Notes under the pieces: generated by a model
Seen by the model: only the letters and a program-made list of their open reading frames with translations
Database searches by the model: none
Told to the model about the DNA's origin: nothing
Part shown: positions 32,443 through 33,286 of the stretch, one piece after another
Numbering within the stretch: position 1 is the stretch's first letter
Layout: every line of letters starts with the position of its first letter
Source: Aeropyrum camini SY1 = JCM 12091
GTDB lineage: Archaea; Thermoproteota; Thermoprotei_A; Sulfolobales; Acidilobaceae
NCBI RefSeq assembly: GCF_000591035.1
Contig: NC_022521.1
Coordinates: 1,364,001-1,428,000 of the forward strand
Direction of reading: 5' to 3'
Length of the DNA: 64,000 bases
Made by a program: the position numbers and the translations under genes

Positions 32443-32556
32443 TGGTCCCGCCGCGGGGATTCGAACCCCGGACCACCCGGTGTCTGCGGGGAGACACCGG
32501 GTTACTCCGCCCGTGTCCCACTACAGCCGGGCGCTCTGCCGCTGAGCTACGGCGGG
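32443..32556 (-). tRNA. tRNA-Tyr (GUA) with intron, CCA encoded
   Basis: Read on the minus strand: acceptor CCCGCCG (32556-32550) pairs with CGGCGGG (32453-32447); D arm GCTC-AGCGGCA-GAGC; anticodon stem CCCGG/CCGGG; loop C-T-GTA-G-A after splicing, so the anticodon is GUA; T arm CGGGG-TTCGAAT-CCCCG. Discriminator A and a genome-encoded CCA follow. The C1-G72 pair is the archaeal tRNA-Tyr identity mark. An intron of 39 nt lies after position 37. Upstream, CCTTATAGG (about 32583-32591) sits about 30 nt before the 5' end as TATA box. Confidence 0.95.
32482..32520 (-). other. tRNA-Tyr intron with canonical bulge-helix-bulge splice motif
   Basis: The 39-nt intron is bounded by AG^T at the 5' site and AC^A at the 3' site. 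Each is a 3-nt bulge, separated by a 4-bp central helix CTGT/GCAG. The anticodon stem forms one outer helix and the intron itself (GGG-ACAC with GTGT-CTC-CCC) the other. This is the standard substrate of the archaeal splicing endonuclease, at the common 37/38 position. Confidence 0.9.
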
Positions 32557-32662: not shown

Positions 32663-32733
32663 CCTGGATGGGCGATGAGGATAGGCGGGCTTTCCTGAGA
32701 CGTGTGATGAGTGCGGTCGTATCCGAGTCCAGC
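32663..32733 (+). ncRNA. Probable C/D-box guide RNA
   Basis: A terminal stem CTGGA (32664-32668) pairs with TCCAG (32728-32732). Inside are a C box GCGATGA (32672-32678, one base from consensus), a 16-nt spacer, a perfect D' CTGA (32695-32698), a 5-nt D'-C' linker, a perfect C' GTGATGA (32704-32710), a 12-nt guide (32711-32722) and a D box CCGA (32723-32726, one base off). Order, linker length and the 12-nt guide are those of archaeal C/D sRNAs that direct 2'-O-methylation. TGTAATAGC about 25 nt upstream may be the TATA box. Guide targets were not identified. Confidence 0.55.
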
Positions 32734-32797: not shown

Positions 32798-33286
32798 TTG
32801 AGTGTAAAGCTCGAAGTTGTGGATATAGAGATTCCTGAGGGTGCTAACGTCATAATAGGTAGGAGCCATTTTATAAAGACTGTTGAGGACCTTTACGAGG
32901 CCCTCGTGACTAGCTGCCCCTCGCTGAAGTTTGGCATAGCGTTCTGCGAGGCCTCCGGTAAGAGGCTTGTCAGGCATGATGGAAACGATGAGGACCTCAG
33001 GAAGAAGGCTATCGAAGCTTGTATGAAGATAGGAGCAGGCCACGTTTTTGTGGTGTACATTAGGAATGGGTGGCCTATTAATGTGCTTAACGCCATAAAG
33101 AGCGTTCAAGAAGTGGTATCGATAGACGCGGCTACAGCTAACCCTGTGAAGGTTGTTGTTGCCGACCTCGGGGATCAGAGAGCCCTCCTGGGTGTGGCGG
33201 ACGGGTTTAAGCCTCTAGGTGTTGAGGGCGAAGACGATATAAGGGAGAGGAAGGAGTTTCTGAGGAAGATAGGCTATAAACGATGA
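32798..33286 (+). CDS. Adenosine-specific kinase family protein
   Basis: Similar to the small archaeal/thermophile family annotated as adenosine-specific kinase (TM1056/PAE2307-like); the enzymatic role rests on structural work on relatives. The protein is about 162 residues: [71 protein letters not shown] and the glycine-rich [15 protein letters not shown] segments are characteristic. I choose TTG 32798 because GGGGGGTGGGATG precedes it and it fits the family N-terminus. A longer GTG frame from 32711 would run into the guide-RNA candidate. The 3' end overlaps the convergent S9 peptidase by 13 bp. Confidence 0.8.

Follow-up and report, generated by a model that had tools for sequence, protein, structure and literature searches.

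What occupies the gap between the genes for tRNA-Tyr and an adenosine-specific kinase-like protein in Aeropyrum, where an original prediction had placed a candidate C/D-box guide RNA? We followed up this question in the 64-kb stretch of DNA that carries the locus (64,000 nucleotides, hereafter the window, to which all gene coordinates refer), which belongs to a genome with a single contig of 1,595,994 bases. Our analyses indicate that the element is very probably an archaeal double-guide C/D-box sRNA, predicted from its sequence to direct 2'-O-methylation of 16S rRNA at G844 and G864. We take these nucleotides to be the equivalents of E. coli G874 and G894, using a numbering anchor that we assume to be correct, and the target stretch presumably lies in the neck of the small subunit, in the h25/h27 region. 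This assignment is based on the observed sequence anatomy, guide–target pairing, conservation, a swapped guide order in other families, and a fibrillarin gene in the same genome. The candidate was borne out by its boxes, by the pairing of both guides with 16S rRNA, and by its conservation in many related genomes.

Box architecture and terminal stem

The boxes follow each other in the order C, D', C', D with the spacing of archaeal C/D-box sRNAs (Table 1). Both strands of the window were scanned for this order, using RTGATGA for C and C' and CTGA for D and D' and allowing one mismatch in each box but no more than two overall, and the single matching place was this sRNA. Two registers of box C were accepted there, starting at 32672 or 32675. 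The former corresponds to the box C that had been predicted, GCGATGA at 32672–32678; this string is present, but the register is not favored by the relatives and lies 3 bases upstream of the corrected box. When 53 distinct relatives were aligned on the conserved D' guide, 34 of them had a perfect RTGATGA at 32675–32681 (ATGATGA in 18, GTGATGA in 16), the position at which Aeropyrum has ATGAGGA. These relatives were obtained by a parser with fixed guide cores, and the invariance of the cores is thus partly given by construction. The parser input comprised 71 loci, and the 17 that remained unparsed were sorted by eye into six with swapped guides, two unrelated loci, four with another D' guide, and five that deviate in one guide or box.

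With the corrected register, the predicted count of two perfect boxes and two that are one base off still holds, as C and D each deviate by one base from the consensus, and the D', C', and D boxes, the linker, and the 12-nt D guide were all found where they had been predicted. As box C sits at 32675–32681, the D' guide comprises 13 nt and not the 16 nt (32679–32694) previously assigned to it. The same register demands that the terminal stem adjoins the kink-turn, which is the case for TGGGC/GTCCA. The fold predicted for the Aeropyrum sequence contains this stem, and its register is paired in 155 of 212 cells across the 53 relatives, with at least three contiguous pairs in 29 of them and compensatory changes recognizable by eye, such as GCGGC/GCCGC in G003. 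The strings of the terminal stem proposed before, CTGGA/TCCAG, are present as well, but their pairing is not kept in relatives: only 73 of 212 cells are paired, which is about the level of chance (approximately 80 for random pairing with equal bases), and this stem was rejected. The predicted free energy of the lone sRNA strand is not unusual (z 0.66).

Table 1. Features of the sRNA locus and its neighbors (window coordinates).
Feature	Position	Strand	Basis
tRNA-Tyr(GUA) with intron	32446–32556	-	Rfam RF00005, 55.4 bits; anticodon read
C/D-box sRNA gene	32664–32732	+	Box order, guide–target pairing, conservation; ends approximate
Terminal stem 5' arm TGGGC	32669–32673	+	Predicted fold pairs it with GTCCA 32727–32731; register kept in relatives
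Box C ATGAGGA	32675–32681	+	Aligned to relatives with perfect box C; one base off RTGATGA
D' guide TAGGCGGGCTTTC	32682–32694	+	9 Watson–Crick pairs with 16S AAGCCCGCC; predicted N+5 site G844 (presumed E. coli G874)
Box D' CTGA	32695–32698	+	Sequence
D'–C' linker GACGT, 5 nt	32699–32703	+	Sequence
Box C' GTGATGA	32704–32710	+	Sequence
D guide GTGCGGTCGTAT	32711–32722	+	11 pairs (2 G-U) with 16S GTACGGCCGCA; predicted N+5 site G864 (presumed E. coli G894)
Box D CCGA	32723–32726	+	Sequence; one base off consensus; CTGA in 39/53 parsed relatives
Terminal stem 3' arm GTCCA	32727–32731	+	Predicted fold and relatives
Adenosine-specific kinase-like gene, TTG start	32798–33286	+	Pfam PF04008, 3.5e-73; start backed by relatives

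Guide pairing with 16S rRNA

The target search covered every rRNA and tRNA match in the genome, each in gene orientation. Complementarity to an rRNA or tRNA across an N+5 nucleotide had been set beforehand as a check of the candidate, and both guides passed it in 16S rRNA: the D' guide pairs with positions 842–850 and the D guide with positions 860–870, which places their N+5 sites G844 and G864 at a distance of 20 nt. By the pairing criterion in section 16 of PMC4644070, D' passes with its nine Watson–Crick pairs, and the two G-U pairs of D are allowed for double guides. For the D guide, 16S GTACGGCCGCA was the best site among the scanned targets. The 45 tRNA matches were discarded as targets, as their best sites had 8–9 pairs including G-U, below the 16S sites. 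Taken singly, the pairing of these GC-rich guides is not significant, as the best score was reached in 86 of 1000 shuffles in the case of D and in 652 of 1000 in the case of D'. When the guide pairs were shuffled, joint pairing of this quality within 100 nt was reached in 4 of 1000 trials with dinucleotide shuffling and in 7 of 1000 with base shuffling. Because the pairing of a single guide is weak, the target assignment rests on the guide pair and on the relatives. In scans of nine genomes against their own 16S and 23S rRNA, the 16S D' site was the best or equal best in eight, the exception being G089 with its different D' guide, and the 16S D site was found in eight, the exception being G039 with an A-C mismatch in the guide. 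The 16S target sequence is identical in all 11 genomes read.

For the D' guide, there were two candidate sites, 16S AAGCCCGCC or a site around position 1907 of 23S rRNA, and we therefore considered that a genuine sRNA might use its D' guide in Aeropyrum for 23S G1907 and not for 16S G844. The 23S pairing in the genome of the window is slightly longer (10–11 pairs with one G-U, as compared to 9 in 16S), but the T at guide position −3 has no partner in it, and the site is far from the D target. Moreover, the 23S site is present in only the two Aeropyrum genomes among nine aligned and missing in the other seven, and relatives without it keep the same D' guide core and the 16S site. We consider this alternative improbable, and G1907 was rejected as D' target in view of its restriction to Aeropyrum among the nine aligned genomes; 16S G844 is the preferred target.

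The D cores of the 53 parsed members with normal guide order are TGCGGTCGTA (26), TGTGGCCGTA (22), TGCAGCCGTA (3), and TGCGGCCGTA (2), the last being the perfect complement of the 16S target. From these counts, a G-U pair at either of two symmetric positions is the rule in the D duplex, and an A-C mismatch occurs in 3 of the 53. Nearly all normal-order D guides (L144–L260) thus keep one G-U or A-C, as if they avoided the self-complementary CGGCCG, which a perfect D guide would contain and which may favor dimers. Dimer avoidance is nevertheless a suggestion only, as the swapped sRNAs L244, L245, L246, L256, and L257 use the perfect form. One lineage of family f9 (genus g40; L199, L200, L203, and L209, found by the model described below) has kept the D guide for 16S G894 and carries a different D' guide, for which no good rRNA target was found in the 16S and 23S rRNA of G089 itself.

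Conservation and gene neighborhood

Guides and target are conserved in relatives, and the sRNA is conserved across families while its flanks have diverged. The surrounding DNA has a 94% match in G004 of the same genus, and short conserved pieces were found in G003, G005, and G011. A search of 229 genomes of the class for the two guides in the order seen in Aeropyrum gave 48 places in 46 genomes, whereas the reversed control pattern was detected in one genome; of the 48 places, the second one of G003 looks like a chance match. When a sequence-only model of the sRNA, built from five members, was run on 214 genomes of the order, 121 of them had matches at E values of 0.1 or below; the weak matches were not counted as members, because unrelated C/D RNAs (L217, L226) and a match resembling coding sequence (L232) are among them. 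The genome of the window encodes fibrillarin (E 1.3e-104), the one C/D RNP protein that was searched.

The tRNA gene, predicted to be an adjacent and divergent tRNA-Tyr, was confirmed as tRNA-Tyr(GUA) by Rfam and by its anticodon; ARAGORN missed this intron-containing tRNA in the window. tRNA-Tyr lies beside the sRNA in seven of nine relatives scanned, in both orientations: it is divergent in four loci of the same genus, and co-directional and upstream of the sRNA in G011, G057, and G017, so that the relative orientation of the two genes differs from genus to genus. In G011 (L148, L085), the sRNA match starts 12 nt after the co-directional tRNA-Tyr, and a dicistronic transcript of the two is possible; the distance is greater in G057 and G017.

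On the other side of the sRNA, the shorter kinase start at 32798, for which the original prediction had argued, is supported by the Pfam domain and by relatives. In the long frame, the Adenosine_kin domain starts at residue 37, which is 7 residues into the short form, and the nearest relatives, which by name are from Aeropyrum and other Desulfurococcales, align from residues 1–4 of the short form. The long frame from 32711 would cross the sRNA, whose identification thus also supports the shorter start. As this start follows 71 nt after the end of box D on the same strand, and as L7Ae control via kink-turns in leaders is reported for archaea in PMC5539422, the boxes could also represent a kink-turn that binds L7Ae within the 5' leader of the mRNA for the kinase, i.e., a cis-regulator rather than a guide. 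However, a 301-base query that included the kinase start found sRNA and kinase together only in G000, G004, and G005, whereas G003 and G011 matched the sRNA side alone and G017 has the two on separate contigs. In addition, the conservation is concentrated on the guides, which a cis-acting kink-turn would not need. A leader element is therefore very unlikely, and the guide RNA is the reading that we retain.

An equally doubtful proposal is that the sRNA mainly aids the removal of a 16S intron whose start lies some 15 nt downstream from the D target site in Aeropyrum, with methylation being secondary. The 16S genes of G000 and G004 are indeed interrupted directly after GGCTGAAA, beside the D target, but G085, G087, G164, G165, and G039 possess the sRNA and have no 16S insertion at that place. 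The idea that an intergenic stretch resembles C/D boxes by chance, which the two imperfect boxes of the four might suggest, can practically be dismissed, as none of 30 dinucleotide shuffles of the window gave a match in the box scan and the sRNA is conserved between diverged flanks.

The rRNA genes themselves contain insertions. In the 16S gene of the window's genome (L092), there are two intron-like insertions at gene positions of about 880–940 and 1140–1210, the first of which is the one close to the D target site; the insertion at this place is longer in G004. The 23S match of the window's genome covers 3856 bases, as compared to 2987 model positions.

Swapped guide order and proposed function

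A noisy pattern for the arrangement with the 864 guide first and the 844 guide second matched 30 of the 229 genomes from the class, with the control pattern occurring in four genomes, and 23 of the 31 places were read. Both guides together with C, D', C', and D boxes within the criteria were present at 15 of these places, whereas five fail only on a D box with two mismatches and three look like chance. All 15 full swapped-order sRNAs belong to families f2 and f3, in which the pattern search of the 229 genomes did not find the Aeropyrum-type order. A route to such a swap is known, as section 10 of PMC4644070 presents Methanopyrus sRNAs whose guides are related by a circular rearrangement of this kind, and C/D sRNAs in circular form are reported for Nanoarchaeum in PMC3491384. 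What is special about the swap is that both guides remain on one RNA after the flip. Since the guide pair is kept across several families while its order flips between lineages, we tentatively suggest that the guides for 16S G874/G894 might be selected as a pair, and that a simultaneous bridging in the sense of h25/h27 chaperoning, and not only the two methylations, could be what is conserved, the polarity of the bridge being irrelevant; we would not yet favor this view. A family with one guide pair in both orders offers a natural test of paired chaperones versus two independent guides.

In C/D-box sRNAs, boxes C and D form a kink-turn and boxes C' and D' a kink-loop, which are bound by a complex of L7Ae, Nop5, and fibrillarin. 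In the case of the Aeropyrum sRNA, this complex would bind both elements, the D' guide would direct 2'-O-methylation of G844, and the D guide would direct that of G864. As both guides would act so close to each other on one 16S stretch, the sRNA probably also helps to fold it. We infer the transcription of the sRNA, its RNP assembly, the methylation, and the folding aid; the specific prediction that the 16S rRNA of Aeropyrum carries 2'-O-methyl groups at these two nucleotides can be checked.

Comparison with known systems

The sRNA belongs to a well-known kind and is a conventional double guide. A search in Rfam gave no family above its gathering score, and all sub-threshold matches were archaeal C/D families, the best being sR44 (RF01129) with E 1.3e-4. 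sR44 and the other sub-threshold sR families share the box architecture of the Aeropyrum sRNA, but the guides of sR44 differ and the score is 25.8 bits as compared to a gathering score of 45, and the Aeropyrum sRNA is therefore not a member of sR44. A literature search by title and abstract opening, with supplementary tables and most subscription papers outside its reach, found no paper on Aeropyrum C/D sRNAs. C/D sRNAs predicted for A. pernix were listed early on, and the sRNA may already be included somewhere.

The co-directional order of tRNA-Tyr and sRNA in G011, G057, and G017 resembles the dicistronic tRNA–C/D sRNA genes of Nanoarchaeum described in PMC3491384. Aeropyrum differs from these in that its tRNA-Tyr is divergent, and a joint transcript is therefore not expected there. 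Among 489 archaeal C/D sRNAs in PMC4644070 (2015), 262 are predicted double guides, and helices 3, 18, and 27 are given as the densest region of 16S rRNA. The study covers seven species, none of them from Aeropyrum, and its double guides are like the Aeropyrum sRNA in having four boxes, two guides, and N+5 sites in 16S rRNA within 100 nt. The guide swap that it describes took place between sRNAs of Methanopyrus, whereas the swap of the Aeropyrum-type sRNA is one between families, with both guides kept.
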